A stretch of DNA of 64,000 nucleotides, from positions 2,494,001-2,558,000 of the forward strand of contig NZ_LS483370.1 in the NCBI RefSeq assembly GCF_900475285.1, read 5' to 3'. The position numbers and the translations under genes were made by a program. Origin of the DNA: Pseudomonas taetrolens (GTDB lineage Bacteria > Pseudomonadota > Gammaproteobacteria > Pseudomonadales > Pseudomonadaceae). Below the pieces are notes generated by a model, which searched no databases, was not told where the DNA came from, and worked only from the letters and a program-made list of their open reading frames with translations. Shown one piece after another: positions 4,592-38,252 of this stretch; positions within the stretch are counted from its first letter, which is position 1, and every line of letters begins with the position of its first letter.

Positions 4592-4971
4592 ATAAACCTC
4601 TGGAAATCGAACAGCGGACCGTGCGCCTCTGCGCATGCGATTGCCAAGCCGAAGAGTGTGTTGTGCTAATGCCCACCGTACGGGCAGGGCGGTTGAGTCG
4701 GGCACACGTCGACGAGGTGTGGCCAGCCATTGAGCGACGCGCTTGGGTCACTGCCGCGCCCACTCAGGGCTCAGGCGGTTGCAAATGAGCGCGGGATTCT
4801 AAGGCTTGTGCAGGATTTTCCAATAGCTGTCTGCTGCGACGTTACGACGCAGGCGAGCCCTGGCCCCTCACATAACGACAGGTCATCGTTAGCTCACTGA
4901 AAATATCGCTTTATCCCGCCTCTCCCGCTGGTTAGCCTGCGCGGTCGAGTTACCATTTTGAACATGGGGTC
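4592..4971. other. Intergenic region between divergent MFS and YddG-type transporter genes
   Basis: This 380-bp divergent gap must contain both promoters. Apart from a KOPS octamer at 4682-4689, no clear -35/-10 pair, operator or RNA element could be assigned by eye. Confidence 0.5.
4682..4689 (+). other. KOPS octamer (FtsK orienting sequence)
   Basis: GGGCAGGG on the + strand, left of dif and pointing toward it, as expected for the GGGNAGGG motif that directs the FtsK translocase to dif. Confidence 0.6.
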
Positions 4972-5913
4972 ATGATGCAGATCAGGGGTGAGCGGGCGGC
5001 CACAGCGTGTGGTCTGGTAGCGATTGTGTTGTGGAGCACTGCCGCCGGATTGATCAGGGGTGTCAGCGAACATTTCGGCCCGCTGGGTGGCGCCGCGCTG
5101 ATTTATTCGTTGGGTGCCCTGATGCTGCTCGTGTTGCTGGGGCGCCCGCGAATCCGCTCGACATCAACGCTCTACCTGCTGCTCGGCAGCGCCTTGTTTG
5201 TCGCTTACGAAGTGTGCCTGTCGTTGGCGCTGGGGTTTGCCAGTGATCGTCAGCAAGCCATCGAACTGGGCGTGGTGAATTACCTGTGGCCTTGCCTGAC
5301 CGTGGTGCTGGCGATTTTCATGAATGGTCAGAAAACCCGCTGGTTCATCGTTCCGGGCTCCGCCCTCGCGCTGTTCGGCATCTTGTGGGTGGTCAGTGGT
5401 GACGGCTTATCCCTGCCGGGCATTGTGCGCAACGTGCAGTCGAATCCGCTCAGCTACAGCCTGGCACTGACCTGTGCGATCACGTTTGCGCTGTATTGCA
5501 ATGTCACCCGCCGCTATGCGGGCGGGCAGAATCTGGTGGTCCTGTTTTTTGTACTGGCGGCCGCGGTGCTGTGGCTGAAGTGGTTTGTGAGCGACGAACA
5601 GTTCCCGGCCTTCAGGTGGGCCAACTCCCTTGAGCTATTGGCTGCCGGAGTCGCCATGGCGGGTGGTTACGCACTATGGAATATCGGCATCCTGCGGGGG
5701 AATCTGACGCTGCTGGCGACCTCATCCTATTCAGCCCCCGTGCTGTCATCGGCGTTCGCTGCGGCATGGCTGGGCGTCAGTCTGCAGGCACAGTTCTGGC
5801 AAGGTGCAGTGCTTGTGACGGCGGGATCGCTGCTGTGTTGGCACGCAACCCGGCAGCGGGCGGCTCTTGAGCCGCTACCGATACAGGTCTGTGCTGACGA
5901 AAACCCGCGCTGA
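4972..5913 (+). CDS. yddG: YddG-type aromatic amino acid exporter (EamA/DMT family)
   Basis: A 313-residue inner-membrane protein with ten hydrophobic segments in two EamA repeats. Recognisable stretches include ATACGLVAIVLWSTAAGLIR at the start, FASDRQQAIELGVVNYLWPC in the first repeat and GGYALWNIGILRGNLTLLAT in the second, all characteristic of the YddG subgroup, which exports aromatic amino acids and some xenobiotics such as paraquat. Two consecutive ATG codons (4972, 4975) follow TGGGGT; either may be used. It is transcribed alone or with the TetR gene 82 bp downstream. Confidence 0.85.
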   Translation: MMQIRGERAATACGLVAIVLWSTAAGLIRGVSEHFGPLGGAALIYSLGALMLLVLLGRPRIRSTSTLYLLLGSALFVAYEVCLSLALGFASDRQQAIELGVVNYLWPCLTVVLAIFMNGQKTRWFIVPGSALALFGILWVVSGDGLSLPGIVRNVQSNPLSYSLALTCAITFALYCNVTRRYAGGQNLVVLFFVLAAAVLWLKWFVSDEQFPAFRWANSLELLAAGVAMAGGYALWNIGILRGNLTLLATSSYSAPVLSSAFAAAWLGVSLQAQFWQGAVLVTAGSLLCWHATRQRAALEPLPIQVCADENPR

Positions 5914-5995
5914 ACAGGCTACAGACGTAAATACACGACGGTATCTCCGGTGGTCACACGTTGTCAGTTGTCGCCAGGGTGAGTAAGCTGATCCG

Positions 5996-6622
5996 ATGAG
6001 TCAGTCATCCCTATTTTCATCTTCAACCAGCGCCCGTGGTCCAGCCGATCACGACATTCGAGATCAGATTGTCGCGGCTGCCAACCAGCACTTTAGCCAG
6101 TACGGCTACGGTAAAACCACGGTTTCCGAACTGGCCAGGGCCATTGGATTTTCCAAGGCTTACATTTACAAGTTTTTTGATTCCAAACAGGCGATAGGTG
6201 AGGCCATCTGCGCAAACTGTCTGGCTCAAATCGTCGCGGCAGTGGATCAAGCGATCAATGTTGCAAACCTGTCGCCTACCGAGCGCTTTCGACGTTTGGT
6301 CAAGACCTTGATCTCGACCGGTGTTGACCTGTTCTTCAACGATAGAAAGCTCTATGACATCGCAGCATTTGCAGCGTCGGAAAGCTGGCCCGTCTCCCAG
6401 GCGTATGAGGCACAGATCAAGCGCTTCGTGCTGCAAATAGTACGGGAAGGGCGAGAGGCAGGTGAGTTTGAGCGCAAGACACCCTTGGACGAGACTGTCG
6501 ACGCTATACACTTAGCGCTGCGGCCATTCGTTAACCCTTTGCAGTTGCAGTACAACCTCGATTTTGTCGACGAAGCCCCCACCCTGACCACCAATCTGAT
6601 CTTGCGCAGCCTTATGCCCTGA
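5996..6622 (+). CDS. TetR/AcrR-family regulator of the adjacent RND efflux genes
   Basis: A 208-residue TetR-type repressor. The N-terminal helix-turn-helix spans about residues 20-65 (IVAAANQHFSQYGYGKTTVSELARAIG, then SKAYIYKFFDSKQAIG, with the TetR FFDSK signature), followed by an all-helical ligand domain. It lies 357 bp upstream of an RND adaptor and pump on the same strand, the usual position of a local drug-responsive repressor, and a palindrome overlaps the -35 box of that promoter. Its likely role is ligand-released repression of the pump; the ligand is unknown. The ribosome site is weak. Confidence 0.88.
   Translation: MSQSSLFSSSTSARGPADHDIRDQIVAAANQHFSQYGYGKTTVSELARAIGFSKAYIYKFFDSKQAIGEAICANCLAQIVAAVDQAINVANLSPTERFRRLVKTLISTGVDLFFNDRKLYDIAAFAASESWPVSQAYEAQIKRFVLQIVREGREAGEFERKTPLDETVDAIHLALRPFVNPLQLQYNLDFVDEAPTLTTNLILRSLMP
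6444..6451 (+). other. KOPS octamer
   Basis: GGGAAGGG on the + strand, inside the TetR gene, oriented toward dif. Confidence 0.6.
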
Positions 6623-6769
6623 CTGTTGGGCTGCGTTTTTTCTTCTTCCATTATCCGCCCGGCCCGCGTCTGGGCGTCGCGTCATGATGCTGTGCGACAG
6701 AACGCTGCCCCCAGTCACGATCCGCAAGCGGAGCCTCTGGACGATGGTCGTCCGGGCCGATAAAAGCGA

Positions 6770-6777
6770 GGGAAGGG
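6770..6777 (+). other. KOPS octamer
   Basis: GGGAAGGG on the + strand, in the TetR-RND gap, oriented toward dif. Confidence 0.6.
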
Positions 6778-11163: not shown

Positions 11164-11274
11164 TCACACGAACCTGGTGGAGAGGGCGCCTGCGTCCTCT
11201 CGCCATAAAGGTATGGCCCCGGGTTTAAGTACGCTGCTTTTCAGGGGCGTCGATTGATAAATGAAGAGGTTCCA

Positions 11275-12561
11275 ATGATTAATCTTGAAGGTCAAAAGCG
11301 AATCGTAGTGACAGGCGTCGGAATAGTCGGGCCTCTGGGATGCGGAGCAGAAGAAGTCTGGAACAGATTGCTGTCTGGACGTTCCGGCATCCGTCACTTG
11401 CCAGGCGATATCACCCAGGACACAGGGGTTAGCGCAGGAGGTCAAGTGCCGTCTCTGGAGGAGGACGCCATTGCCGGCTACGATCCGGAACGCGTCATTT
11501 CGGCCAAGGACCGCAAGAAGATGGACCGCTTCATCGAGTTTGCGCTGGTGGCCGCCCATGAAGCGCTGGAGCAGGCTGGCTGGCGGCCAACAACCGCCGC
11601 AGAGCAGGAGCGAACCGCAACGGTCATCGCCTCGGGCGTGGGCGGGTTTGGCGCAATTGCCGATGCGGTACGAACCACTGACACACGCGGCCCCCGTCGG
11701 TTGTCGCCGTTCACTGCGCCGTCTTTCCTCGCCAATATGGCGGCAGGGCACCTATCCCTCCGCTACGGCTTCAAAGGCCCGCTCGGCGCACCGGTAACCG
11801 CCTGTGCCGCTGGCGTGCAGGCCATCGGTGATGCGGCGCGAATCATCCGAAGCGGTGAGGCAGACATCGCCATCTGCGGCGGGACCGAAGCGGCGATAGA
11901 TCGAGTGACTCTGGGCTGCTTTGCGGCGGCCCGCGCGCTGTCGACCGGGTTTGCCGAGCACCCGCAGCAGGCCTCACGCCCTTTTGATCGTGATCGCGAC
12001 GGTTTTGTGATGTCCGAAGGTGCCGGGTTGCTGGTGATCGAGACACTCGAGCACGCCCTCGCGCGGGGAGCCAAGCCTCTGGCGGAACTGGTCGGCTATG
12101 GCACCAGCGCCGATGCTTACCACCTGACCGCGGGGCCTGCGGACGGCAGCGGTGCACGACGCGCCATGGAACTGGCGTTGCGCCAGGCGGCTGTGAGCCC
12201 CGCCGACGTGCAGCATATCAACGCCCACGCCACCTCCACCCCGGTCGGTGACAGAGGAGAGCTGGCAGCCATTCACTCGTTGTTCGGGGCTGACTCCGGC
12301 GTAGCGATCAGCGCCACCAAATCCGCCACCGGGCATCTTCTGGGAGCCGCCGGAGGCGTCGAGGCCATCTTCACGGTACTGGCGCTTCGTGACCAGATCG
12401 CGCCCCCGACCCTCAACCTGATGAACCCCGATGAAGCGGCCAGCGGGCTTAGCCTCGTTGCTCTGCAGCCACGCAACCTGCCAATTGACTACGCACTTTC
12501 CAATGGCTTCGGCTTCGGTGGCGTTAACGCCAGCCTTCTATTCAGACGCTGGCATGATTAA
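11275..12561 (+). CDS. Beta-ketoacyl-ACP synthase II-like enzyme (stand-alone FabF homologue)
   Basis: A 428-residue thiolase-fold condensing enzyme. The start at 11275 follows GAAGAGG; an in-frame TTG at 11254 is rejected. The catalytic triad is complete: Cys177 in VTACAAGVQ, His318 in NAHATSTPVGD and His354 in ATGHLLGAAGG. It would condense malonyl-ACP with an acyl-ACP. The N-terminal GVGIVGPLGCGAEEVWNRLL is FabF-like. No ACP, ketoreductase or transacylase lies nearby, so this is an extra FabF copy rather than the housekeeping fabF (normally beside acpP). It follows the RND pump by 111 bp on the same strand and may be co-expressed; an intrinsic hairpin follows its stop. Confidence 0.9.
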   Translation: MINLEGQKRIVVTGVGIVGPLGCGAEEVWNRLLSGRSGIRHLPGDITQDTGVSAGGQVPSLEEDAIAGYDPERVISAKDRKKMDRFIEFALVAAHEALEQAGWRPTTAAEQERTATVIASGVGGFGAIADAVRTTDTRGPRRLSPFTAPSFLANMAAGHLSLRYGFKGPLGAPVTACAAGVQAIGDAARIIRSGEADIAICGGTEAAIDRVTLGCFAAARALSTGFAEHPQQASRPFDRDRDGFVMSEGAGLLVIETLEHALARGAKPLAELVGYGTSADAYHLTAGPADGSGARRAMELALRQAAVSPADVQHINAHATSTPVGDRGELAAIHSLFGADSGVAISATKSATGHLLGAAGGVEAIFTVLALRDQIAPPTLNLMNPDEAASGLSLVALQPRNLPIDYALSNGFGFGGVNASLLFRRWHD

Positions 12562-12583: not shown

Positions 12584-12615
12584 CCATGAGCCAGGACCGT
12601 CGCCCTGGCTCATGG
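12584..12615 (+). terminator. 12-bp perfect hairpin after the FabF-like gene
   Basis: CCATGAGCCAGG pairs perfectly with its complement across an 8-base loop, beginning 22 bases after the stop codon. There is no T-run, so this is a probable transcription-ending or RNA-stabilising stem rather than a textbook terminator. Confidence 0.5.
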
Positions 12616-12986
12616 CGTGACCGTCAGGCTGCGGTAACGAGCACGGTCCGGCCGAACGTTGATGATGTGGATCTCAAAGCGCCGTTCAATGACGTCGGCG
12701 ACATCTTGTAAATACAACTTCGATGTTAGCCAGGGTGGTTGAATTTTGACGAGCGCGCGGGATGTATCGGGTGACACACCAGGAGTTGAACGTAGATGAA
12801 TGGAACAAGCATGGGCAATGGCGCCGCATCTCCAGTCAGCACGAGCAGCGGTACACGCTGACCTGAAGAGAAACGGCACTGAATCAGCTTCATCGGCAGC
12901 CACCTCATTCAATGACGCGCCATGAACACGAAGGACATGGCCCGTTGAGAGATTGGACGCCAGATGAGTCTCTGACCTAGCACATG

Positions 12987-13014
12987 ATTTAACATAATAT
13001 ACATTATGCGAACC
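12987..13014 (-). other. dif site (XerC/XerD chromosome-dimer resolution site)
   Basis: Read on the - strand, the 28 bases consist of the XerC arm GGTTCGCATAA, the 6-bp centre TGTATA and the XerD arm TTATGTTAAAT. As I recall the E. coli dif sequence, this differs only at the fourth base (T instead of G), and all positions of the central region and XerD arm are identical. It lies in a gene-free gap, and all KOPS octamers found on both sides point toward it. It therefore marks the replication terminus where XerC/XerD, activated by FtsK, resolve dimeric chromosomes. Only one copy is present, so there is no sign of an integrated Xer-dependent element. Confidence 0.96.
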
Positions 13015-13358: not shown

Positions 13359-13880
13359 ATGCCCATATCTGTTTTGCCTCGCGCTTTACTCACTGCGGTT
13401 GATGCGATTTATCTGCCTGCCGGTTTGAAAAGCCCGAGCGATATTTCGCCACACGCTGAGGCTCGCGAATACGGAGGCTGCCAATTCAATCTGGCGGGTC
13501 GTCGAGTACTGTTCCGTGTTGCCAAAACGACGCCGACCAAGGTTGGACAGTTCGTTACATTATGGAAACGCCCCTGTATCGACAGTGTTATTGCGCCTCT
13601 GGATCACGCAGATGGCATCGACTTTGTGGTGGTCAATGTGGCCAGCGCCTCGCAGAGTGGCCAATTTGTTTTTGACCGTGATGCACTGTTGGCCCACGGC
13701 GTGACGTCCATAAACGGTGTCGGCGGTAAGCGTGCCATGCGTGTTTACCCTCCGTGGAGCCAGCCTGCATCCAGGCCAGCGTTACAGACTCAACGCTGGC
13801 AAATGGCGTATTTTCTGGCGATTGAGCCCTTTGACGAGGCCTCAGTACTGCGCGCCAAGGTGTTATTCAAGTGCGGGTGA
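13359..13880 (+). CDS. MepB-family protein
   Basis: A 173-residue cytosolic protein without signal peptide or membrane segment. Its EYGGCQFNL, FRVAKTTPTKVGQFVTLWKRP, GQFVFDRDALLAHGV, GKRAMRVYPPW and TQRWQMAYF blocks follow the order of the MepB family. MepB was named from the third gene of the S. aureus mepRAB multidrug-efflux operon, and its biochemical role is unknown. Here it stands alone, with no MATE transporter or MarR regulator nearby, 345 bp from dif on the right arm. The start ATG at 13359 has AAGGA 11 bases upstream. Its orientation is opposite to replication on this arm. Confidence 0.85.
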   Translation: MPISVLPRALLTAVDAIYLPAGLKSPSDISPHAEAREYGGCQFNLAGRRVLFRVAKTTPTKVGQFVTLWKRPCIDSVIAPLDHADGIDFVVVNVASASQSGQFVFDRDALLAHGVTSINGVGGKRAMRVYPPWSQPASRPALQTQRWQMAYFLAIEPFDEASVLRAKVLFKCG

Positions 13881-14036: not shown

Positions 14037-14044
14037 CCCTGCCC
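14037..14044 (-). other. KOPS octamer
   Basis: GGGCAGGG on the - strand about 1 kb right of dif, pointing back toward it. Confidence 0.6.
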
Positions 14045-14085
14045 TCAGCCCGGTATAAATCGCCCGCCGCGGCCCGATCACCGGC

Positions 14086-14796
14086 TCAGCGATTCCCCGC
14101 CAACGGATAAAGCGCTTCATCGAACTGCGACAGGCAAGGAAACACTATGGGCTGATCGTCGGCGATATGAATGAGACGCTGCTGGTAACTGCGCAGAAAA
14201 TCCGCACGGGCCTCGTCAGTGATGTATGGCACATGCCAGGCCACAAACGGTTCCAGCACTTCGCAGCCGACATAAGCCAAAGTGCCACGCAGAATCGGCC
14301 GCAGCATGTCTTGCAGCGGGCCGTGAATGGCACCTTCACCGAACATGTGCTCGCGCCCGCCCAGGGTCACCGTCACCAACGCCTTCTTGCCGCTGAGTCC
14401 GCCCTGGTCGTAGAAGCGTTTGCCGCCGTAACAAATGCCGGATACCAATACCCGGTCAATCCAGCCTTTGAGTATCGCCGGTGCCGAGAACCAGAAAATC
14501 GGAAAATTCAGGATCAGCAAATCGGCCCACAGCAGCTTGTCCAGTTCTTGCTGGATATCCGCTGCCAGTGCTTGTTTTTTGACCCCCAGGCGCTGCTCCA
14601 GTGCATAAACCAGGTAGTCCGGGTTTTCACGCGCTGAGAAATCATTGGCACTGGCTACCGGGTTCCAGTTCATGGCATACAAATCACTGACTTGCACTTC
14701 ATGCCCTTGGGTTTTGAGGGTTTCAACCGCTTGGTCGCGCAAGGCTGCGGTGAAAGAGTTGGGTTCAGGATGTGCGTGGACGATCAATACGTTCAT
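14086..14796 (-). CDS. NAD(P)H dehydrogenase (quinone), NQO1/KefF-like flavoprotein
   Basis: A 236-residue flavodoxin-fold protein beginning MNVLIVHAHPEPNSFTAAL, with the flavin-binding ILNFPIFWFSAPAILKGWIDRVL and a VTLGGREHMFGEGAIHG loop, all typical of the NQO1-like quinone reductase family. It would reduce quinones by two electrons using NAD(P)H in the cytosol. The ATG is preceded by AGGGAATTACC. It is the last gene of the arginine transaminase block, 60 bp after the aldehyde dehydrogenase. From memory, P. aeruginosa PAO1 has a similar gene beside aruH, which supports synteny; its role in arginine use is not evident. Confidence 0.88.
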   Translation of the reverse strand: MNVLIVHAHPEPNSFTAALRDQAVETLKTQGHEVQVSDLYAMNWNPVASANDFSARENPDYLVYALEQRLGVKKQALAADIQQELDKLLWADLLILNFPIFWFSAPAILKGWIDRVLVSGICYGGKRFYDQGGLSGKKALVTVTLGGREHMFGEGAIHGPLQDMLRPILRGTLAYVGCEVLEPFVAWHVPYITDEARADFLRSYQQRLIHIADDQPIVFPCLSQFDEALYPLAGNR

Positions 14797-14856
14797 GGTA
14801 ATTCCCTGGATGCTTTCAAGTGTTTGAGGCGAAGAACGGACGGCGTCAGGTCAGGA

Positions 14857-16272
14857 TCACAGTTGCAACGCTTTCACTTCGACGAATTCGGCCAGCCCTT
14901 CTTCGCCCCACTCGCGGCCATTGCCGGACTGTTTGTAGCCGCCAAACGGAGCCTGGTAGTTGAACGCTCCGCCGTTGATAAAGCACTGGCCAGCACGGAG
15001 CTGCCGACCCAGGTCGACAGCCCGTTCTCGGCTACCGGCCCATACGCCACTGGACAGGCCGAACGGTGAGTCGTTGGCGATGTGTATGGCCTCGGCCTCG
15101 TGGGTATAGGGGATCAGGCACAACACCGGCCCGAAGATTTCCTCTTGAGCGATACGCATCCGGTTGTCGACATCGGCAAACAGCGTTGGCTTGACGTAGA
15201 AACCGCGCTCAAACTCCTCTGCCGTACCGCCGCCACATAACAGGCGAGCGCCCTCCTCCTGGCCGACGTTTATGTAGTCACGTACGGTACGCCGCTGCGC
15301 GGCCGAACACATCGGCCCCAAGAAACTCTGCGGGTCGAGCGGATCGCCCAGGCGCAGGCTTTGAGTCTCGGCCACGGCCAACTCCAGTGCTTCGGCATAG
15401 CGGTTGGCAGGCAATAGCATGCGCGTCAGCGCCGTGCAGGTCTGCCCGGAGTTGATCATCACGTCTTGCACGCCATAACGCACGGCGGCAGCCAGGTCGG
15501 CATCCTCACCGATCAGCAACGGGGATTTGCCACCCAGTTCAAGGCAGACCCGCTTGACCGACGGCGCTGCGGCCTGCGCCACACGAATGCCCGCACCGGT
15601 AGACCCCGTAAACGAGACCATGTCCACGTCACGGTGCCTGGCCAGTGCCTCACCGACCTTCGAGCCCGGCCCGCTGACCAGATTGAAGACCCCGGCAGGC
15701 AAACCGATGGCTTCGATCATTTCAGCCAGCAAGAACGCGTGAAGCGGGGTTTCCTGACTCGGTTTGACCACGACGGTACAACCTGCGGCCAGTGCCGGGG
15801 CCAATTTGCCTATCAACTGATGCAGCGGGTAATTCCAAGGGTTAATGAACGCGCAAACGCCAACCGGTTCACGGACCACTAATGAACTGCCGACCTCGCG
15901 CACTTCATCCATAAGCCCGGCGATTTCGATGTACTGCTCAAGCCCGGTAATCGGCCCTTCGACTTGTACCGAGCGGCACCATTGCACCGGCATGCCCAGT
16001 TCGGCCGTGATGACGCCCGCCATCTCGTCTGCTCTTGCACGCAGCTGTTCTGCCAAAGCCCGGATATAACCTGCGCGCTCGGCGGATGACGTTCGCGACC
16101 ACGGGCCAAAGGCCTGTCGCGCGGCGGCCACGGCCCGGTCGACATCACGTTCGTCGCCCATGGGCACTCGCCCTGCGACCTGCTCCGTTGCCGGATTGAT
16201 CACTTCAGCCATGCCCTGGCCGGCAGGTGCCTGCCACTTACCGTTGATGAATAAAGCCGTGTAGTTACGCAT
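14857..16272 (-). CDS. Aldehyde dehydrogenase, probably 4-guanidinobutanal dehydrogenase
   Basis: 471 residues with all core ALDH features: INPWNYPLHQL, VVKPSQETP, the general-base Glu in CLELGGKSP (about residue 246), the nucleophilic Cys in NSGQTCTALTRM (about 280) and EEIFGPVL. The start overlaps the aruH stop by 8 bp behind GGAGGAGC, so it is translated in the same operon. AruI releases 4-guanidinobutyraldehyde from 2-ketoarginine, and this enzyme is placed to oxidise it to 4-guanidinobutyrate. In PAO1 that step is usually credited to the unlinked KauB, so a dedicated linked enzyme would be a local variation. Family is certain; substrate is inferred from context. Confidence 0.85.
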   Translation of the reverse strand: MRNYTALFINGKWQAPAGQGMAEVINPATEQVAGRVPMGDERDVDRAVAAARQAFGPWSRTSSAERAGYIRALAEQLRARADEMAGVITAELGMPVQWCRSVQVEGPITGLEQYIEIAGLMDEVREVGSSLVVREPVGVCAFINPWNYPLHQLIGKLAPALAAGCTVVVKPSQETPLHAFLLAEMIEAIGLPAGVFNLVSGPGSKVGEALARHRDVDMVSFTGSTGAGIRVAQAAAPSVKRVCLELGGKSPLLIGEDADLAAAVRYGVQDVMINSGQTCTALTRMLLPANRYAEALELAVAETQSLRLGDPLDPQSFLGPMCSAAQRRTVRDYINVGQEEGARLLCGGGTAEEFERGFYVKPTLFADVDNRMRIAQEEIFGPVLCLIPYTHEAEAIHIANDSPFGLSSGVWAGSRERAVDLGRQLRAGQCFINGGAFNYQAPFGGYKQSGNGREWGEEGLAEFVEVKALQL

Positions 16273-17455
16273 CGACCCGCTCCTCCATCAGCTCATGGGC
16301 ACACCGGGCGATACGTTGGCAGGCATCACGCAACTGCGCCGCACCCAGCACCAGGCCCAGACGAATATGCCCGGCCGCGCTCGGGCCAAATGCTTCACCG
16401 GCCAGAACGGAAACACCATGCCTGTCCAGCAAACGGTCCGCGAAGGCCTGGGCGCTAAGCCCGGTTTCACGGATATCAACCATCACGAACATGCCGCCAT
16501 CCGGTCTCAAGGCACGCAGCCCCGGGCACGCAGACAGGCTTTCGCACACCAGATCCCTGCGCTGGCGATAGGCCTGACGCATGGCTTCAAGCTCCGGCAG
16601 CTCCGCTTCCAGCGCGACCACTGCCGCGTCCTGAATGAAATCCGGAGAGCCATAAAGCATGCACAACGCGAGGTTCTCCAAATGCCCGGCGAGTGCCTGC
16701 GGTGCAACCACCCAGCCAACACGCCAGCCCGTCATGGCGTGAGATTTCGAGAGGCTGTTCAGGGTCGCCGTGCGCTGCGCCATGCCAGGCAAACTGGCCG
16801 GGCTGATGTGCTCGCCCTCGAACAGCAATTCGCTGTAGACCTCATCGGAGATCAGCCATAGATCATGGGCAATGCACAGCTCGGCCAGCGCCTCCCAGGT
16901 GGAGCGGGACAAACTGGCACCGGAGGGGTTATGCGGGCTGTTAAGTGCAAGCGCCCGGGTGCGCGGTGTAATGCGCGCAGCGACGTCTTCGGGCAATACC
17001 CTAAAGCCATTTTCGGAGCGCACCGGCACCGGAATGACCACCGCACCACAGGCCCCGAACACAGCTTCATAGGTGACGTACATCGGCTCGGCGACAATCA
17101 CTTCATCACCCGGGTTGAGCACGCACTGCACAACGCTGAACAACGCACATTGCGCACCGGACAGCACCACGACGTGATCGGCATCGACCTGTTGGCCACT
17201 GCGTTGCTGATGGCGCCGGGCAATGCTTTCACGCAAGGCACGCTTGCCGCGGACTTCGGCGTAATGGGTATTGCCTGTGAGCAGGCTGTCGATTGCCGCT
17301 TGCACGATGGGGGCCGGGGTATCGAAATCCGGATCGCCTACCGATAGCAGCAGAATGTCGTGGCCCTGCTCCTGAAGTGCGATGGCGCGGTAGTGAATGT
17401 CCCAGGCTGCCGCGCCGTCACCGGCGATACGTTGAGTCAGATCGGAAAAACGCAT
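16265..17455 (-). CDS. aruH: Arginine:pyruvate transaminase AruH
   Basis: A 396-residue class I/II PLP aminotransferase. The N-terminus (MRFSDLTQRIAGDGAAAWDI) and the blocks LLLSVGDPDFDTP, NSPHNPSGASL, SDEVYSELLFEGEH, NSLSKSHAMTGWRVGW (PLP Lys in SLSKS) and GEAFGPSAAGHIRLGLVLG match P. aeruginosa AruH as I recall it almost residue for residue. AruH moves the alpha-amino group of arginine to pyruvate, giving 2-ketoarginine and alanine, the first step of the arginine transaminase pathway. It is followed by overlapping ALDH and preceded by aruI with a 24-bp gap. Confidence 0.95.
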   Translation of the reverse strand: MRFSDLTQRIAGDGAAAWDIHYRAIALQEQGHDILLLSVGDPDFDTPAPIVQAAIDSLLTGNTHYAEVRGKRALRESIARRHQQRSGQQVDADHVVVLSGAQCALFSVVQCVLNPGDEVIVAEPMYVTYEAVFGACGAVVIPVPVRSENGFRVLPEDVAARITPRTRALALNSPHNPSGASLSRSTWEALAELCIAHDLWLISDEVYSELLFEGEHISPASLPGMAQRTATLNSLSKSHAMTGWRVGWVVAPQALAGHLENLALCMLYGSPDFIQDAAVVALEAELPELEAMRQAYRQRRDLVCESLSACPGLRALRPDGGMFVMVDIRETGLSAQAFADRLLDRHGVSVLAGEAFGPSAAGHIRLGLVLGAAQLRDACQRIARCAHELMEERVDA

Positions 17456-17479
17456 GATGGTTTGTTCCTTATAGTGGGG

Positions 17480-19099
17480 TTAACCGACCAGCGCGCACGC
17501 GTGCTTGAGTTCGATCAGGGTGACGCCGTTTCGGCTAAATCCTGCACGCAGGTCCATTTGCAATTCATTCAGGTTCTGCGGCTGGGTCACGGTGCAACCA
17601 AAGGCACGGGCCAGCGCAGCGAAGTCGGGGTTGCGCGGCAGCACACCAATCGGCTCGATATCCAGGCCGATCATGTCATCACGGATCTGCCCCAACGCGT
17701 CATTGTTCCAGAGCAGAATCACCAATGGACTGTCCAACTCTTCTACCGCGGTTGCCAGCTCTTGTGCGGTGTAGAGAAAACCGCCGTCGCCGACCAGCAC
17801 CAACCCGGGCCGGTCCGGCGCGCCGAATTTGCCACCGATACCCGCCGGCAGACCGTAGCCCAGGGTGCCGTAGCCTGTCGGATGCAACCAGCTGCGCGGC
17901 GCATGACTGCTGAACGCGTAGTTACCGGTGTAGGCCAGCTGAGTCATGTCGCTGCTGACAAAGGCGTTGGCCGGCAGCTCTGCTGAAACCCGGTCGAGAA
18001 TCGCCTGGTGAATCGACTGCAAAGCGCCATGCCCGGCCTTGACGGCCTGACGCAACGTACTGACGGTTTGAATGGCCGCGCTGGCATCACGTGCCGCCTC
18101 GGGCAGGCGCGCCAACAACGCAGCCACGGTCTGCTGGGCATCGCCCTGCAACGCCACGGCACAGGGGTAGAAGTCATTGAACTTGCGCGGATCGATATCC
18201 ACCCGCAGCAGTTCGGCATTCAGTGGCAGACGCTCACGCCAATAATCGGTATCCGCCATCTCCGTGCCAACGGCCAGTACCACATCCGCTTCGGCAATCA
18301 GCTGCCAACCGGGCTCAATACACAACGTTGCGCCCGCATTCAATGGCGCGTTCGGCGGCAACAATCCCTTGCCGGCGACGCTACTGAAAAACGGTGCAGC
18401 CAGGCGCGTGCTCAGGGCTTGCAGCGTTTGAGCCGCCTGCAAGGCGCCACCGCCGGCAATGATCATCGGTCGTCGTGCAGCCTTCAGTTTCGCCACGGCC
18501 TGATCCAGCACCTCGCTCGACGGGACACCGCGTCCGGGACGGCGCACCACCTCATGACTCCAGTCGCGGGCCACTGGCGCAGCCAGCACATCCAGCGGCA
18601 GCGAAATGTGCACCGGACGCGGCCGCTCACTGTCGAACACCGCGTAAGCCCGGGCAATCAGCTGCGGGATGTCCTCGGCAGTCAATGCCACCGCTGAAAA
18701 CGCGGTGATGGGTGCGGTCATGGCACGTTGATCCTGGGTCTCGTGCAAGCACCCCCACCCTTTGCCAAGACTCTCCGTGTGGTTAACGCTGGAAATCACC
18801 AGCATCGGAATCGAGTCGGCGTACGCTTGGCCGATAGCCGTAGCCGCGTTGGTCACGCCGGGGCCGGTAATGATGAAGCACACGCCCGGTTTGCCGCTGA
18901 CGCGCGCATAGCCGTCCGCCATGAACCCGGCGCCCTGCTCGTGCCGGGTCAGGACATGGCGAATGCCGCTGCCAGGCAAGCCGCGATACAACTCCAGGGT
19001 ATGCACTCCGGGAATGCCGAACACGGTGTCGACGTTGTAATTTGCCAATAGACGCACCAACGCCTGGCCACCGGTCAAGGTTTTGCTTTGCATGCTCAT
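17480..19099 (-). CDS. aruI: 2-ketoarginine (5-guanidino-2-oxopentanoate) decarboxylase AruI
   Basis: A 539-residue thiamine-diphosphate enzyme of the acetolactate synthase/benzoylformate decarboxylase fold: N-terminal pyrimidine-binding domain with GIPGVHTLELYRGL and the catalytic Glu in TRHEQGAGFMADGYAR (about residue 54), a central domain, and the C-terminal TPP motif from GDGGFLYTAQE to LLWNN. AruI decarboxylates 2-ketoarginine to 4-guanidinobutyraldehyde. The adjacent aruH makes the assignment firm. ATG at 19099 is kept; the ATG at 19093 is better spaced from GAGGAC and may be the true start. It begins 4 bp after the acyl-CoA ligase stop. Confidence 0.93.
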   Translation of the reverse strand: MSMQSKTLTGGQALVRLLANYNVDTVFGIPGVHTLELYRGLPGSGIRHVLTRHEQGAGFMADGYARVSGKPGVCFIITGPGVTNAATAIGQAYADSIPMLVISSVNHTESLGKGWGCLHETQDQRAMTAPITAFSAVALTAEDIPQLIARAYAVFDSERPRPVHISLPLDVLAAPVARDWSHEVVRRPGRGVPSSEVLDQAVAKLKAARRPMIIAGGGALQAAQTLQALSTRLAAPFFSSVAGKGLLPPNAPLNAGATLCIEPGWQLIAEADVVLAVGTEMADTDYWRERLPLNAELLRVDIDPRKFNDFYPCAVALQGDAQQTVAALLARLPEAARDASAAIQTVSTLRQAVKAGHGALQSIHQAILDRVSAELPANAFVSSDMTQLAYTGNYAFSSHAPRSWLHPTGYGTLGYGLPAGIGGKFGAPDRPGLVLVGDGGFLYTAQELATAVEELDSPLVILLWNNDALGQIRDDMIGLDIEPIGVLPRNPDFAALARAFGCTVTQPQNLNELQMDLRAGFSRNGVTLIELKHACALVG

Positions 19100-19103
19100 G
19101 TCC

Positions 19104-21203
19104 TCAGGCGTGGCCGAGACGAATTAACGCATCGACCGCAGTCGTGCCTTGGGCACCGACCAATAATGGGTTTACATCAAGTTCGAGCAATTGCCCGGCG
19201 TTTTCGCAGGCGTAGTCCGCCACCGCCCGGATGGCGGCGACCAGCGCGTCCATGTCCGCGGCTTCGCGGCCGCGAAAACCTTGCAGCAACGGGGCACTGC
19301 GCAGGCTCAGCACTGCGCCGCGAATGGCGTTATCGGTGGTCGGCAGCAACAGGCTGCGGCTGTCCTTGAGCAATTCAACCAGAATCCCGCCGGTGCCAAT
19401 GACCAGCGCCAGGCCAAAGCCGGTTTCACGCTTGACCCCTACAATCAGCTCAGCCAGTGGTGGCGACGCCATGCTTTCCAGCAACACCTGGTCGAACGGC
19501 ACCCCCGGCGCGTAGTCGGCAATCCGCCCGCGCATCTGTTCCAGGGCGGCACTCAAGGCCTGGGCATCTCGCAGATTCAATGCCACCGCACCGGCTTCGG
19601 TCTTGTGCGGCAATCGGGCGCTGACCGCCTTGAGCGCCAAGGGATAACCCAGCGTGTTCGCCGCATCCAGAGCCTCGCTGGGTGTCGTCAATACCCCTCG
19701 CGGGGTCGGCAAGCCAAAGGCTTGCAGGGCCTGCTTCGACTGCCACTCATCCAGCAACTGCCCGTTGCCTTCCAGCGCGTGTGGCGCAAGCGGCAGCAAC
19801 GCAGACTCACCGAGTGCCAGCAATGCCTGGCGTCGTTGCTGGTAACCGGCAATGGCACCCCACGCGGCGAACCCATCCTCAACCCCTTGCAGCGCCGCTA
19901 CGCCGTGGGCATGCAGGCGCTCACGGGCACTGGCCGGCAGCAATTCAGGGAAGGCCGAGGAGACAAAACCGGTCTTGCCATGACGGCTCAGCGCCGAGCA
20001 GTACAGCTCCAGCAGCAGGTCGCATTCCTTGCGTTCTCCGGTCGCCTCAGAGGGGTAATCCAGTACCAGCACCGCGGCGTCTGCTTCGGTGCGCAGGGCA
20101 CTGTCGAGCATCTGTTCCAGAGCGTTGCGTTCCCCCCAAATCGCTGTGGTGAAGTCCAGAGGATTGACCAGGTTGGCGTAACTCGGCAGGACTTTATCCA
20201 GTTCGAGGCGCTGCCCCTCGTCCAGGGGTGGCAGGCTCAAATCATTGCGTTCGGCGTAGTCGGCAATCAGCCCGGCATCGCCACCCGAGCACGCCAGGGC
20301 GATCAGGCTCTTGCCCGCTGGCAAGTTGCCGCAGGCAGCGGCTTTGAGTGTTTCAACAAAACTCACCGGACCACTGACCCGAATGACCCCGAGGCGGTCG
20401 AACAAACTGTCGTACAGCGCATCGGAGCCGGCCAGCGAACTGGTGTGGCTCAGCGCCAGTTCTGCACCGATTTGCGACACACCGGTTTTCAGGGCAATGA
20501 TCGGAATCCCTTTCTCCAGCGCCTTGTGCGCAGCGCGGGCGAATCCCGGAACGTTCTTCAGCCCTTCAAGGTGCAAACCGATCGCCGTGACACGCGGCTC
20601 ATCGAGCAGCACATCCATCAATTCGGCGATGCCCAGTTGCGCCTGATTGCCGACTGAAACCATGTAGGCCACAGGCAGCGAGCGATCACTCATGGAAAGG
20701 TTATAGGCGAAGTTACCGCTCTGGGTCAGCACTGCCACGCCCTTCTCCACCGTCTTGCCGCCATGGGCGACCGGCCATAATGCGCAGCTGTGCAGGTAGT
20801 CGAGCACGCCGTAACAGTTGGGGCCGAGCAAGGCCATGTCGCCGGCGGCCTGAAGCAACTGATCTTGCAAGGCCTGGCCTTGCGGTCCGATCTCGGCAAA
20901 ACCGGAGGCATAGCAGATCGCGCCGCCTGCGCCTTTGGCCGCCAGCTCGGCGACGCAGATCAAGGTCAGATCACGATTGGTGGCAATGAATACCGCGTCC
21001 GGCCCACATGGCAGCTCTGCGACGCTGCGCACACATGGCACGCCTTCGAGGCTGTCATGCTGCGGATTGACCAGCCACATCTGCCCCAGGTAGCCGCCCT
21101 CTGCGCAACGCTGAAGCGCGCGGGCCATGCTGCGCCCGCCGATAAACGCCACATGGCGCGGTGCGAGCAGGCGCTTGAAGTTGTCACGAATGTGTTGAGA
21201 CAT
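19104..21203 (-). CDS. NDP-forming acyl-CoA synthetase (acetate-CoA ligase family)
   Basis: A 699-residue fusion of the CoA-binding/ligase alpha part (about 1-460, beginning LLAPRHVAFIGGRSM, with QSGNFAYN and the phosphohistidine loop LSHTSSLAGSD) and the ATP-grasp beta part (about 480-699, EWQSKQALQAFGLPTPRG and GGILVELLKDSR). It forms acyl-CoA with conversion of ATP to ADP and phosphate through a His phosphate. The ATG at 21203 with GGAGAACGCAC is chosen; the frame back to 21305 overlaps the acyl-CoA dehydrogenase. It lies 13 bp after that gene and 4 bp before aruI. Substrate unknown; 4-guanidinobutyrate or a related acid is a contextual guess. Confidence 0.9.
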   Translation of the reverse strand: MSQHIRDNFKRLLAPRHVAFIGGRSMARALQRCAEGGYLGQMWLVNPQHDSLEGVPCVRSVAELPCGPDAVFIATNRDLTLICVAELAAKGAGGAICYASGFAEIGPQGQALQDQLLQAAGDMALLGPNCYGVLDYLHSCALWPVAHGGKTVEKGVAVLTQSGNFAYNLSMSDRSLPVAYMVSVGNQAQLGIAELMDVLLDEPRVTAIGLHLEGLKNVPGFARAAHKALEKGIPIIALKTGVSQIGAELALSHTSSLAGSDALYDSLFDRLGVIRVSGPVSFVETLKAAACGNLPAGKSLIALACSGGDAGLIADYAERNDLSLPPLDEGQRLELDKVLPSYANLVNPLDFTTAIWGERNALEQMLDSALRTEADAAVLVLDYPSEATGERKECDLLLELYCSALSRHGKTGFVSSAFPELLPASARERLHAHGVAALQGVEDGFAAWGAIAGYQQRRQALLALGESALLPLAPHALEGNGQLLDEWQSKQALQAFGLPTPRGVLTTPSEALDAANTLGYPLALKAVSARLPHKTEAGAVALNLRDAQALSAALEQMRGRIADYAPGVPFDQVLLESMASPPLAELIVGVKRETGFGLALVIGTGGILVELLKDSRSLLLPTTDNAIRGAVLSLRSAPLLQGFRGREAADMDALVAAIRAVADYACENAGQLLELDVNPLLVGAQGTTAVDALIRLGHA

Positions 21204-21216
21204 GTGCGTTCTCCGG

Positions 21217-22377
21217 TCAGCGCAGCAGCGGCCGCAGCAGTTCGCGTGAAATGATGTGACGCTGGATTTCGGAGGTCCCCTCCCAGATCCGCTCGATCCG
21301 GGCATTGCGCCAAATGCGCTCCACCGGGCCTTCGTCCATCAAGCCCATGCCCCCGAAAATCTGCACCGCCTCATCCGCCACACGCCCCAGCACTTCACTG
21401 GCGAACAACTTGGCCATGCCGGCTTCGCCGTCAGTCATGCTGCCTTGATCCATTTTCCAGGCGGTGTGCAGGGTCATCAGTTCCGCCGCCCGGATTTGCG
21501 TGGCCATGTCGGCCAGCTTGAACGACACCCCCTGGAAGGTCCCGATGGGTTGACCGAACTGCTTGCGATCCGCCGCCCATTGCAGCGAAACGTCCAGCGC
21601 CCGCTGGGCCTGACCCACGCAGTTGGCAGCCACCATCACCCGCCCGGCCGTTAACCAGGCATTCGCCACGTCCCAACCCTTGCCGACTTCACCGAGCACT
21701 TTGGAGGCCGGCACACGGCAATCGTCGAAGAACATTTCGTAAGTGTGATAGCCGCGGTTGCTGACGCATTTCGGGCCACGGCGGATGGTCATGCCCGGCG
21801 TGTCGCGGTCGACCAGAAAGGCGGTCACGGCATTACGCGTGCGCCCGTTGTGTACGTAGGTATCGGTCACCGCGAACACAATGGCGAAGTCAGCGTGCCC
21901 GGCATGGCTGATAAAGTGCTTGCTGCCGTTCAGCACAAAGTCATCGCCCTCTCGTACCGCTCGGGTTTTGATCGCATTGGCATCAGACCCGGCGCCGGGC
22001 TCGGTGAGTGCGAAGCAGTCGGTTTTTTCACCCTGAATGCACGGCAGCAGGTAGTCCTGGATCTGCTGGCCGGTACAGGCCATGAGAATCTTCGACGGTC
22101 GTGCGACAAACACATGCAGAGCCCACGACACTTTGGACAGTTCGCGTTCGATCAGCGCCTGGGACAGGTAGTCGAGCCCGCCGCCGCCTACTTCTTCCGG
22201 CATATTGAAGGCATAGAAGCCTGCTGCCAGGGCCTTGCCACGAATCTGTGCGGCGAGTTCAGGGCAGACCTCATCGGCGCGATCTACCGCTTCTTCATGT
22301 GGCAGCAGTTCTTTGGCAACAAAACTGCGTACGGCATCCACCAACATTTCTTGTTCTTGGGTCAGCTGGAAATTCAT
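21217..22377 (-). CDS. Acyl-CoA dehydrogenase
   Basis: A 386-residue flavoenzyme of standard length: N-terminal helical domain (MNFQLTQEQEMLVDAVRSFV), middle FAD-binding strands with FALTEPGAGSDANAI and GSKHFISHAG, and the C-terminal helical domain with QIFGGMGLMDEGPVERIWRNARIERIWEGTSEI. The Glu of WEGTSEIQ is at the usual catalytic-base position of short/medium-chain enzymes. It introduces a trans-2,3 double bond into an acyl-CoA. It is 60 bp after the enoyl-CoA hydratase and 13 bp before the ligase, so the three form a CoA-activation/beta-oxidation cassette inside the arginine locus. Confidence 0.93.
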   Translation of the reverse strand: MNFQLTQEQEMLVDAVRSFVAKELLPHEEAVDRADEVCPELAAQIRGKALAAGFYAFNMPEEVGGGGLDYLSQALIERELSKVSWALHVFVARPSKILMACTGQQIQDYLLPCIQGEKTDCFALTEPGAGSDANAIKTRAVREGDDFVLNGSKHFISHAGHADFAIVFAVTDTYVHNGRTRNAVTAFLVDRDTPGMTIRRGPKCVSNRGYHTYEMFFDDCRVPASKVLGEVGKGWDVANAWLTAGRVMVAANCVGQAQRALDVSLQWAADRKQFGQPIGTFQGVSFKLADMATQIRAAELMTLHTAWKMDQGSMTDGEAGMAKLFASEVLGRVADEAVQIFGGMGLMDEGPVERIWRNARIERIWEGTSEIQRHIISRELLRPLLR

Positions 22378-22437
22378 TGCGCTACCTGCTCTTCGATAAC
22401 CGAGTGTTCTGGGGCTGTTGAGTCGTGGGTGCCGTGT

Positions 22438-23229
22438 TTAATTGCCTGAAAAGACCGGGGCGCGTTTCTCCATGGCCGCCCGCAAGGCTTCAGCGCCGTC
22501 TCGACTGCGCCCGCAGAGCAAACCGGCAGCCCGTTCTGCGTCCAGTTGTTCCGGCAAGCTGCGTTGAGCGCCTTCGCGCATCAGTTTTTTAGTTTGGGCA
22601 AAGGCGAACGTCGGGCCGCTAGCCAGGCGCGACGCCAGCTCAGCCGCCGCGGCCAACAGTTGCTCATCGGCACACACTTCGCTGACCAGACCGGCCGCCA
22701 GGGCCCGGTCGGCGCCCCAGAGCTCATCGAGAAACAGCAGACGCTTGGCCTGCTCGGTTCCTATCAGGCGCGGCAGATGCCAGCTGGCACCGGCATCAGG
22801 CGAGTACGCCATGCTGGTGTAACCGGCCTTGAATCGGGCGGACTGGGCCGCAAGGCGAAAATCGCAACACAGCGTCAAGTCCATACCGGCGCCCACGGCG
22901 GTGCCATTGATGGCCGCGACGGTCGGTTTATCAAAGTGGTACAGGCAGCTCATCAAGGCATGGGCGGTTTCGGTCCAGCCATAGGTTTCCAGCGCTCCGC
23001 GAGACTCGGCTTCGGCCCATTCGGCAAGGTCGGCACCCGCGCAAAAGCTGCGACCGGACCCAGTCAAAACCACAGCGCGCACAGAAGGATCGAGATTGAA
23101 CTGATCGAGCAACGCGTGAAGGTTTTTCAGGGTTGGGATATCCAGCGCATTACGCTGCGGCACGCGGTTAAGCGTGATCCATGCAACGCCTGCTTCAACC
23201 TGGCTGAGCAGAGACATTTGAGTAGTCAT
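22438..23229 (-). CDS. Enoyl-CoA hydratase/isomerase
   Basis: A 263-residue crotonase-fold protein starting MTTQMSLLSQVEAGVAWITL (ATG 23229 behind AGAGGACT; the longer frame to 23274 is rejected). The oxyanion-hole segments GSGRSFCAGADLAEW (about residue 60) and AINGTAVGAGMDLTLCCD (about 105-125) are intact, as is the AYSPDAGASW segment that carries the catalytic acids in many hydratases. It would hydrate the enoyl-CoA made by the adjacent dehydrogenase. It is the first gene of the block running to aruH and ALDH; the 318 bp before it carry the likely promoter and a palindrome. Confidence 0.92.
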   Translation of the reverse strand: MTTQMSLLSQVEAGVAWITLNRVPQRNALDIPTLKNLHALLDQFNLDPSVRAVVLTGSGRSFCAGADLAEWAEAESRGALETYGWTETAHALMSCLYHFDKPTVAAINGTAVGAGMDLTLCCDFRLAAQSARFKAGYTSMAYSPDAGASWHLPRLIGTEQAKRLLFLDELWGADRALAAGLVSEVCADEQLLAAAAELASRLASGPTFAFAQTKKLMREGAQRSLPEQLDAERAAGLLCGRSRDGAEALRAAMEKRAPVFSGN

Positions 23230-23547
23230 ATGAGTCCTCTGATTGTTGTGTTTGTCATGAGGTGGGACCGACATGGCGCCATACTAAACGACCGTTCAGT
23301 AAGGCGGCAATCCTGGGGCCGATCGCCTGTAACAGCGTTAAACTTTTTCTAATTGATTGATTTGTATGAAGAAAAAACAATGGCGCGCTTCATTCCCTGA
23401 AGCGCTGTTACATCTTTGAACAACTGACTACGAGCGTGTTTGTTTGTCCGGAAAAAGTCGCTGAAGCGTATTGACTCAAAGTGGTGACGGGCGAGTTCGC
23501 GATATGTGCGTGTCGCGAACCCGCCCGCGCCTGCTTTGGGTGAAGGG
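23230..23547 (-). promoter_or_regulatory. Promoter region of the catabolic arginine operon with TetR-like palindrome
   Basis: 318 non-coding bases between the permease stop and the enoyl-CoA hydratase start. At 23283-23300 is the 18-bp palindrome ACTAAACGACCGTTCAGT, with arms matching at 7 of 8 positions, about 55 bp before the start codon. This length and symmetry suit a TetR-family dimer. The AT-rich stretch just upstream (23340-23380) probably contains the promoter. AruR may also bind here, but no site was recognised. Confidence 0.55.
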
Positions 23548-24960: not shown

Positions 24961-25170
24961 GGCGCACCTCTTAGTATCGGGAGAGGTGCAGGACGGATAA
25001 CAGGATGTCATCACGCGGGGAAAGATCAGCTTTACGGCAGTTCATTATTATTATCTCCAATAAGCTTCGAAGACCGCGGCCAGCGCGGTTATCCCGATTA
25101 TTGGAAAGCCATGTAAGTTCGCGTTGTACACCAGGATCAAAGATGTACGAAGTCGTAACAAAGTTGTATG

Positions 25171-27435: not shown

Positions 27436-28208
27436 CGGGTATTCACCGGCAGGTTGATCATGTCCCGGTAGGTGGCTTCGCTTTCGTTCAACCAGCGTTC
27501 AATCTCGCCGGCGTCGACCATGCGTTGCAGCTCGGTATCGATTTGCGGCATGCGCTCGGCCAGGGCCGAATGACGTGACACGGCAACGCGCAAGTAGTCC
27601 ACGCTCAACGAGCGAGGCAGCGCCGTAATACTGTCTGCCCCCGGGAGGTGCTCGACGTAAAGCTCCCCGGTGCGCCGCTCCTGAGTAATGAAATCGATAC
27701 GCCCACGGATCAGCTTGCCGAAGTTCTGTCGACTGTCAGACACCCACTCAATATTGTTGTGCTGAATAACGAAGCGATCGAAGTCCGGCCCATAACTCTC
27801 GCCGAACAACAGGCCGCCACGATAGTGGCCGAGGTCTTCAAGCTGCTCGAACTTCACGGGGTGCTTGCGATTGATGAACACGGCCACTTCTTCACGCAAC
27901 ACCGGCACGGTCGAAAAATGCATGCTCTGCTCACGCTGCGCCGTGCTGTAGGCCAGCACTACATCGACACGGCCTTCGGCGGCGTCCAGCAAACAGCGTT
28001 TCCAGTTGCCGAGCACGACAATATCGACCTCATACCCGAGACGGGCAAACAGGTGCTTCACCACGGTGGGTGCCAGGCCGCGCACCTGTTTTCCATCGCT
28101 CCAGGAGATCGGCGGGTAGACCGGATAATCGCAATAGCGAATGCGTTCGGCCGCCACGGTTCCAGTGCCGGCGGCCAGCGCCCATAACAGCCAGAGCAGC
28201 CGCAGCAT
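27432..28208 (-). CDS. Periplasmic solute-binding-like protein between aruR and aruS
   Basis: 258 residues with a signal peptide ([20 protein letters not shown]) and a single family-3 type substrate-binding domain ([31 protein letters not shown], later [19 protein letters not shown]). There is no permease or ATPase gene nearby. It starts 5 bp after the aruR stop and overlaps the aruS start by four bases, so it is translated stoichiometrically with the kinase. The likely role is a periplasmic receptor that binds the inducer and presents it to the AruS sensor domain; this is inferred from gene order. The ribosome site is weak, consistent with coupling. Confidence 0.85.
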
Positions 28209-28213
28209 GCCAA

Positions 28214-28933: not shown

Positions 28934-29024
28934 CGCTTGATGTCCTGCATGTGCCCGAAGGCGCGTTTCTTATTAGAGTTATGGGTGCATCAGTGCCAGA
29001 GAGTATCCATCGCTGAACGATCGA

Positions 29025-29672: not shown

Positions 29673-29809
29673 TGCGGTCAATCTCCTGGATTCAGTCTTG
29701 GGGCTGAGCTCGCGACCTGTCTGGCAGCGCTGAACGACTGTACAACAAGAGCGCTGCCAGCGTCTTCAGCTCAATCTCCCGTCTCTGGACACAGATCGCG
29801 GCAAGCAAC

Positions 29810-30598: not shown

Positions 30599-30642
30599 GG
30601 TGTTGGCTCCTATTGCTCAGGGGGTTGCGCGGACAATCGCGC

Positions 30643-31692: not shown

Positions 31693-31905
31693 CAGTGGTT
31701 CCTCATGCGGGTACTGATCAGCGGCCGCTGTCATGACCCTTTTTTATTGTTGGTGAGGTTAACCCGAGGGCCGGGTATGAACTGAAGCTACTCAAGCGAT
31801 ATTAAAAAAACAAGTTGATTTTTTACTGAGGGTAAATTTCTATAGGGTAATAATAACAACGCCGAACACCCTGTAAATGGCTCGGCCAGCCTGGAGTACC
31901 GCACC
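31693..31905. promoter_or_regulatory. Divergent promoter region between binding protein and oxidoreductase
   Basis: A 213-bp, unusually AT-rich gap (notably 31795-31860) between divergently transcribed genes. The AT-rich block close to the oxidoreductase probably holds promoter elements; no specific operator was identified. Confidence 0.4.
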
Positions 31906-38232: not shown

Positions 38233-38252
38233 CAGCCCTTAACACCTGCAAT

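Follow-up and report, generated by a model that had tools for sequence, protein, structure and literature searches.

The 28-bp sequence at positions 12987-13014 of the window (the whole 64,000-nucleotide stretch of the Pseudomonas taetrolens chromosome analysed here, G000:C1:2494001-2558000) is identified from its sequence and setting as the dif site of this chromosome, with a predicted function in dimer resolution by XerCD and FtsK, the latter guided along KOPS. We consider it very probable that this single dif was also the landing site of a GInt-type island, since deleted to its left tip and three scraps of the gene ginA. Such an island would carry an operon, ginABCD, for two tyrosine recombinases, a large recombinase-related protein and a small protein, and would be inserted by its own recombinases, rather than by XerCD, inside the XerD arm of dif or of plasmid Xer sites, at GTTAAA. 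The left junction would rebuild a complete dif and the right junction would keep a stub, so that insertion would spare dimer resolution.

Results

The dif site and its position on the chromosome

The original prediction of a dif site in the window was borne out: the 28-mer GGTTCGCATAATGTATATTATGTTAAAT lies on the minus strand at exactly these positions with 0 mismatches, it is the sole match in the window at up to 3 mismatches, and none of 100 shuffled windows contained one. No second match at up to 3 mismatches exists in the whole 4,843,871-bp single contig, leaving one copy, at G000:C1:2506987-2507014, on this 4.84-Mb Pseudomonas chromosome. The further statement that the site is one base different from that of E. 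coli is correct for the usual E. coli dif, which we take as the reference, but the difference is not distinctive. Although 5,208 of the 5,517 E. coli records that match a 32-nt dif query do so at 95-99% identity, 118 have at least 99% identity over the aligned part of the query, and the identical 28-mer recurs in at least 117 records from other species. Their titles are gammaproteobacterial almost throughout, with two naming other phyla, and the matches listed include Pseudomonas, Proteus, Morganella, Halomonas, Pectobacterium and others; the one-base difference is therefore nothing special. Within the genus, RNTKCGCATAATGTATATTATGTTAAAT was matched within 2 mismatches in 115 of 149 genomes, at one site in each, and a 22-bp dif core was present within 3 mismatches in 30 of the remaining 34. 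The last four (G069, G072, G075 and G146), with no core at this threshold, have either missing sequence or a divergent site. The outer bases of the XerC arm differ among Pseudomonas species, and the base that departs from E. coli dif occupies such a variable position. As a dif, the window site is ordinary.

GC skew and KOPS (GGGNAGGG) were analysed over 418 contiguous kilobases (2,300,001-2,718,000) and in sampled 20-kb stretches, together about 0.84 of 4.84 Mb, and both agree with the predicted location. The cumulative skew of the contiguous region reaches its maximum at 2,506,197, 790 bp from dif, and the sampled stretches are positive before dif and negative after it, apart from values of -0.005 and -0.002 no more than 75 kb to its left. 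KOPS converge on the site, with 30 on the plus strand and 0 on the minus strand before dif, and 2 and 27, respectively, after it (418 kb; Fisher p 8e-15); the last plus-strand copy lies at 2,500,770 and the first minus-strand copy at 2,508,037. Exceptions in the sampled stretches occur mainly near the origin (0 plus and 3 minus in the first 20 kb; 1 plus and 0 minus at 4.00 Mb). Coordinate 1 is the start of an ORF readable by eye as DnaA, and the 370 bp upstream of it contain four DnaA boxes, which places dif 51.8% of the way round the chromosome, about 85 kb from the antipode. Skew, KOPS and the single dif thus support the claim that the window lies at the replication terminus, a wording that is fair here only because the two arms are nearly equal. 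In P. aeruginosa, as described in part of a published study (PMC6199493), segregation and GC skew track dif, and replication can end hundreds of kilobases away; since skew follows dif rather than the end of replication, the term needs care.

The genome encodes XerD (at 3.76 Mb) and XerC (at 60 kb), both scoring above NCBIfam cut-offs, and an FtsK-gamma gene at 1.59 Mb that matches solved FtsK structures (PDB 2ve8/2ve9). Two further recombinase-like sequences were noticed. One, on the minus strand of the window at 40604-41566, 28 kb from dif, encodes a 320-aa tyrosine recombinase that scores 113 bits against the XerC model, far under its cut-off; the other, at G000:C1:2666166-2666906, is a tyrosine-recombinase-like stretch with one internal TAG.

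Table 1. Coordinates of dif, the island remnants and neighbouring features of the window
Feature	Window position	Strand	Genome position	Remarks
Three KOPS left of dif	4682..6777 (4682, 6444, 6770)	+	2498682, 2500444, 2500770	Point to dif
Beta-ketoacyl-ACP synthase gene (PRK06333 / FabF type)	11254..12561	+		Nearest recognisable gene on the XerD-arm side
ginA remnant, residues 154-189	12610..12717	-		75% identical; one internal TGA
ginA remnant, residues 130-157	12707..12790	-		89% identical; residues 45-129 missing between it and the first piece
ginA remnant (first piece), residues 1-44 of L235 protein	12762..12893	-	G000:C1:2506762-2506893	75% identical
Degraded left tip of GInt-type island	12886..12986	-		Adjoins XerD arm of dif; nhmmer
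dif	12987..13014	-		XerC arm GGTTCGCATAA, 6-bp centre TGTATA, XerD arm TTATGTTAAAT (read on - strand)
MepB-like protein gene	13359..13880	+		Nearest recognisable gene on the XerC-arm side
Six KOPS right of dif	14037..52539 (14037, 25979, 38837, 41850, 52378, 52532)	-		Point to dif

Island remnants beside dif

Previously, dif was described as lying in a gene-free gap. It is true that 12562-13358 holds no recognisable intact gene, its single ORF (100 aa, 12610-12912, minus strand) having no Pfam match, but the half to the left of dif is mobile-element debris. Overlooked in the original prediction, the segment from 12610 to 12986, directly against the XerD arm, reads as the fossil of a GInt-type island, comprising a left tip and three scraps of ginA (Table 1). 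A 140-position left-end profile (nhmmer) recovers the tip with E 9e-24 over positions 25-140 and E 7e-24 over positions 58-140, and the three ginA pieces are collinear, on the same strand and matched at E 6.2e-14 to 6.5e-10. DNA matches at 12783-12964 and 12623-12784, adjacent in the window, are about 280 bp apart in relatives. One could suppose that only the dif is real and that the gap is random non-coding DNA resembling ginA by chance, as the want of an intact gene there would allow; given the E-value of the left-end match, and three pieces that are ordered, on one strand and beside dif as they are in relatives, we regard this as hardly credible.

The DNA of 12600-12985 was matched in 22 of 149 genus genomes, its own included, and lies beside dif in 19 of these; matches are solely away from dif in G007, G016 and G049, and G015 has a second, non-dif match. 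Only the ginA scraps represent the three large gin genes and the small gene in the window, where no later island parts were found, and no other ginA-like sequence was detected in this genome at E<=0.001. To the left of the scraps, no TGTTAAA that could mark a right end occurs on the minus strand within 12 kb. A phage origin of the gap was considered and rejected, the phage collection yielding no match by DNA or by GinA protein. The window had no Rfam or tRNA match, and none of six window proteins matched the defence-gene models. Elsewhere in the window we noted, between the MepB-like and flavodoxin-type genes (13927-13962), a perfect inverted repeat with 15-nt arms around a 6-nt loop, and also cellulose synthesis genes at 51056-60279 (BcsE, cellulose synthase with PilZ, BcsB).

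Intact islands and the census of left ends

In three relatives (G137, G002 and G107), three long overlapping ORFs lie side by side next to dif. At one such locus, L235, ORFs 1 and 2 match Phage_integrase, ORF 3 (705 aa) has no Pfam match, and an 82-aa ORF follows. Similarity between islands starts within 12 nt of the dif core, while the XerC-side flanks of these three genomes share no mutual match of 150 bp or more. Full-length ginA starts 131-133 nt from the dif core at L235, L238 and L414 (loci of G137, G002 and G375, L414 being that of G375), as it does from the Xer-type core of the plasmid p3860P. A search of 244 genomes of the order gave L414 as the sole match at E<=1e-30; G375 also has a second, broken ginA (L415, G375:C13:213798-214022), about 3.4 kb downstream of its full-length copy at dif. 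In P. aeruginosa plasmids, the window DNA falls within a gene annotated as a site-specific integrase, which is followed by a second recombinase gene and, beyond an IS30 element, by a long hypothetical gene. Pieces of ginA with at least 51% identity lie at dif in 16 of 19 genomes, the others being 119 kb away (G049), 26 kb away (G016) and on another contig (G087).

The left-end profile, built from seven left ends, was then applied to both sides of dif in 145 Pseudomonas genomes. On the XerD side, where up to 4 kb was searched (at least 1.5 kb in 145 of 145 genomes, 4 kb in 116), a left end was found in 30 genomes at E<=0.01, always in one direction and starting within 59 nt of the core (within 6 nt in 27). 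On the XerC side, where a median of 0.7 kb was searched (at least 0.6 kb in 143 genomes, 119 nt in the shortest), there was none in 145 genomes. Because six of the 30 are training genomes, the independent count is 24 of 139. Nine weaker matches (E 0.011-0.88) were left uncounted; six of these are in register, one is 9 nt off and two lie elsewhere on the other strand. Among the matches listed, records with exactly this dif have the left end in 9 of 41 cases when titled Pseudomonas and in 0 of 76 when titled otherwise, though some of these 117 named records are apparently the same assemblies as genomes of the genus set. On the XerC side of dif in G107 (L237 8352-9907) there is a stretch of about 1.5 kb, bounded by an apparent second half-dif, whose small ORFs resemble filamentous-phage genes by eye; different elements may colonise the XerC and XerD sides.

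A sequence held in register next to dif in many Pseudomonas could also be an accessory sequence of the host's own dif, used for example by FtsK or XerD and kept by selection. We think this extremely unlikely: the conserved DNA continues into recombinase genes, 115 of the 145 genomes have no match to it at the counting threshold, it is missing from all of the records under other titles mentioned above, and the same DNA occurs at a plasmid Xer site for which the empty form is known.

Empty and filled sites and the point of insertion

That plasmid is p3860P (NZ_CP151176), in which an island sits at a site that is found empty, as ATTTCGTATAA GAAATT TTATGTTAAATGATTG, in two other plasmids. The junctions, ...TTTTATGTTAAA|CGACAGG on the left and ...GACATCGCCCACTTGTTAAAT|GATTG on the right, are 21.6 kb apart. 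The carrier is a multi-resistance plasmid, in which the island (NZ_CP151176.1 439301-460900) is bordered by a replication-protein gene on one side and an mph(E)/msr(E) segment on the other, and an IS30 element separates its second and third recombinase-type genes.

The same right end was recognised in Pseudomonas remnants, 2.7 kb from dif in strain W4I3 and 3.5, 1.3 and 0.2 kb from dif in G062, G070 and G122, respectively, the core being lost in G122. With a right-end profile it was also located behind larger islands, at a distance from dif of 40.9 kb in G107 and 26.6 kb in G029; in the available DNA of G137, G002 and G038 no right end was found. In two genomes, G029 and G070, what follows the right end resembles DNA that other genomes have next to dif. 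In G029 it corresponds to the XerD-side near-dif flank of G090, G017, G005, G048, G073 and G026 (77-83% identity across about 600 bp, starting 35-159 nt into the compared stretch), and in G070 to the DNA directly after dif in G141 (87% over 127 bp, 0.45 kb extra in G070, then 97% over 0.9 kb). The 1.29-kb insert of G070 has the right end only, with no match to gin genes or to the left-end profile; on the XerC side, G070 and G141 have unlike flanks. At about 231430 of G107:C12 (L390) the right end is followed by a short left-tip-like sequence, by eye as if a second island stood behind the first. The island ends also carry an inverted repeat of about 20 nt near ATGTCAGA(GA)TGTTCATAAG; 0 of 2000 shuffles scored as high, for one pair picked by eye (left end of G047, right end of p3860P).

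These junctions, together with an E. coli pair described below, place insertion inside the XerD arm at its GTTAAA core, with dif rebuilt at the left junction and a stub kept at the right. When joining takes place within GTTAAA, the left side retains a complete XerC arm and centre, and a XerD arm short of its final base at most; the site would be rebuilt for this reason. We also weighed whether the islands might be XerCD-dependent passengers, IMEX-like elements put in at the dif centre by the host XerCD. Filamentous phages enter chromosomes in this way, the islands do lie at dif, and the G107 stretch described above may be a phage remnant. XerCD, however, cuts at the edges of the 6-bp centre, whereas the island junctions fall inside the XerD arm, and at the left junction both centre and XerC arm are unchanged from the empty site. 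To the right of the examined islands there was no sign of another Xer site, nor, for the Pseudomonas islands, of second dif copies or half sites within 8-28 kb. The islands, moreover, encode recombinases of their own. We consider host-driven insertion very unlikely, and because of where XerCD cuts, the island's own recombinases appear the likelier agents of integration.

A distant family in enteric bacteria

As a control, the DNA upstream of 20 chromosomal and 4 plasmid distant ginA relatives was compared with the dif core, and the best matches covered 12-15 of 22 bases with one exception. The exception, a plasmid island (L430) with 17 of 22 dif-core bases upstream, led to an enteric family located at dif, the GinA of which is about 25-26% identical to Pseudomonas GinA. 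At least 80% of the L430-type left region is present in 15 of 5,426 E. coli genomes. In three of five E. coli chromosome junctions (ECCHD184, 0-4 and LR-48) the island begins directly after dif; it lies beside hipA in ECCHD184 and LR-48, and the full junction query, with dif and flank, aligns to eight chromosomes. In the other two, 22AR0118 and N9 (L436, L437), just TAAGTTAAAT precedes the left end of the island. Since TAAGTTAAAT matches the island's own right end, we read these as one island behind another, which suggests tandem insertion. Eight of nine enteric plasmid junctions are at Xer-type sites, in which XerC-like arms and centres vary and TTATGTTAAAT is constant; the ninth lacks the left end.

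Comparison of ECCHD184 with the empty site of NZ_CP062908 gives attL TTATGTTAAAT|AACCTCC and attR CAACATAAGTTAAAT|CATGTC, 18.4 kb apart, with one dif retained; among the cargo genes are those for a DEAD/DEAH helicase and for a large ATP-binding protein. Both this island and that of p3860P are flanked by short imperfect direct att repeats (TTATGTTAAAT / ATAAGTTAAAT in ECCHD184, TTATGTTAAAC / ACTTGTTAAAT in p3860P). In a further group of E. coli chromosomes (H133-H143 and H145-H158), 137-168 nt at the start of the dif-island junction query were matched at 77-80% identity, possibly as additional left-tip fossils at E. coli dif.

Movement of the islands

Between G137 and G038 the island is 97.5% identical over 0.77 kb and xerD 87.2%, a contrast that indicates island transfer. 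In the other pairs compared, island (ginA) and xerD divergence are about alike, so that transfer is clear just for some pairs, and part of the island distribution may be old and vertical. The plasmid copies demonstrate movement between replicons.

Discussion

The sequences themselves establish the identity of dif, the remnants beside it, the island junctions and the empty and filled sites. By homology to GInts we infer that the Gin proteins perform the recombination, and we further infer that dif would work both before and after insertion and that the island in the window was lost by deletion. The surviving tips fit deletions that were barred from crossing dif: if deletions may run up to the site and not through it, the part of an island next to dif would be the part to persist.

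Beyond this one locus, we think it likely that islands with three recombinases, from at least two distant lineages, use the XerD arm as a general landing pad, on Pseudomonas and E. coli chromosomes and at plasmid Xer sites. Only TTATGTTAAA would be recognised, the XerC arm and centre being ignored, and the site would be rebuilt on insertion; together these properties would allow colonisation of a locus that a circular chromosome cannot lose. Were this so, repeated arrival and decay of islands would drive much of the gene turnover at the side of dif, in the window included. dif is among the best conserved sites of bacterial chromosomes, and islands that appear to target it with their own enzymes, keep it whole and carry cargo offer a testable reason for the turnover of dif-adjacent DNA, as well as a route that may connect chromosomal dif with plasmid Xer modules.

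The dif itself belongs to an already known system. Like the canonical gammaproteobacterial sites of E. coli and Pseudomonas, it is a single-copy 28-bp sequence with an XerC arm, a 6-bp centre and an XerD arm, located where GC skew switches and KOPS converge, in a host with XerC, XerD and FtsK-gamma genes; it differs by one base from the usual E. coli dif. Filamentous phages and other passengers at dif rely on XerCD, and the islands resemble them in using dif as a landing site. What sets the islands apart is their three recombinase-type genes and a junction inside the XerD arm. Identity with IMEX, defined by crossover at the dif centre and an Xer site at both ends, was rejected from the examined junctions.

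SE elements (PMC10214605), with the gene order intA-tfp-intB-srap, likewise have a recombinase trio with a small gene, defined ends and conserved insertion sites. Their gene order is not that of the dif islands, which have integrase domains in genes 1 and 2 and none in gene 3, and we rejected this identity as well.

GInts are themselves known, and what is new here is GInt-type islands that target dif, which we did not find in print in the open-licence literature. This judgement rests on the main texts of PMC5385486, PMC10214605, PMC10121019 and PMC8865565, where the word dif does not occur, and on a full-text search of that literature, supplements outside it, which returned nothing on gin genes together with dif; a prior description is possible. 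A survey of E. coli defence islands names GInts at hotspots, and its main text mentions neither hipA, ydeT nor the terminus.

GInts were described in 2017 (PMC5385486) as having the gene order A-B-C-D with an integrase domain in A and B, all four gin genes being needed for excision and integration. The link of the dif islands to this family is by target and gene order. Of 20 distant ginA loci, 16 have A-B-C in order at E<=1e-3 and four have A alone; ettA, an ABC-type gene like a published GInt target, adjoins three of the 16 trios (two by NCBIfam, one by eye), and ssb adjoins two distant plasmid ginA loci. It is these loci beside ettA and ssb that tie the dif islands to the GInt family. L235 has three large consecutive recombinase-type genes with a small gene at one end; the islands of p3860P and ECCHD184 have imperfect direct repeats of the GInt kind (10-17 nt); and islands of 18.4-40.9 kb, operon included (18.4 kb in ECCHD184, 21.6 kb in p3860P, 26.6 kb in G029 and 40.9 kb in G107), fall within the 2.5-70 kb of GInt cargo. 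As to the AT-rich 3' end of GInts, the AT content of the last 400 nt is 49.5% in the one island considered, that of p3860P. The dif islands have in common with the published GInts (PMC5385486) their A-B-C-D order, the integrase domains of A and B, the presence of cargo and the short, imperfect direct att repeats, and like them they leave a conserved target intact. The difference lies in the target: those published there are genes (an ABC transporter gene, ssb and a ribonucleotide reductase gene), whereas the islands described here target dif or a plasmid Xer site.
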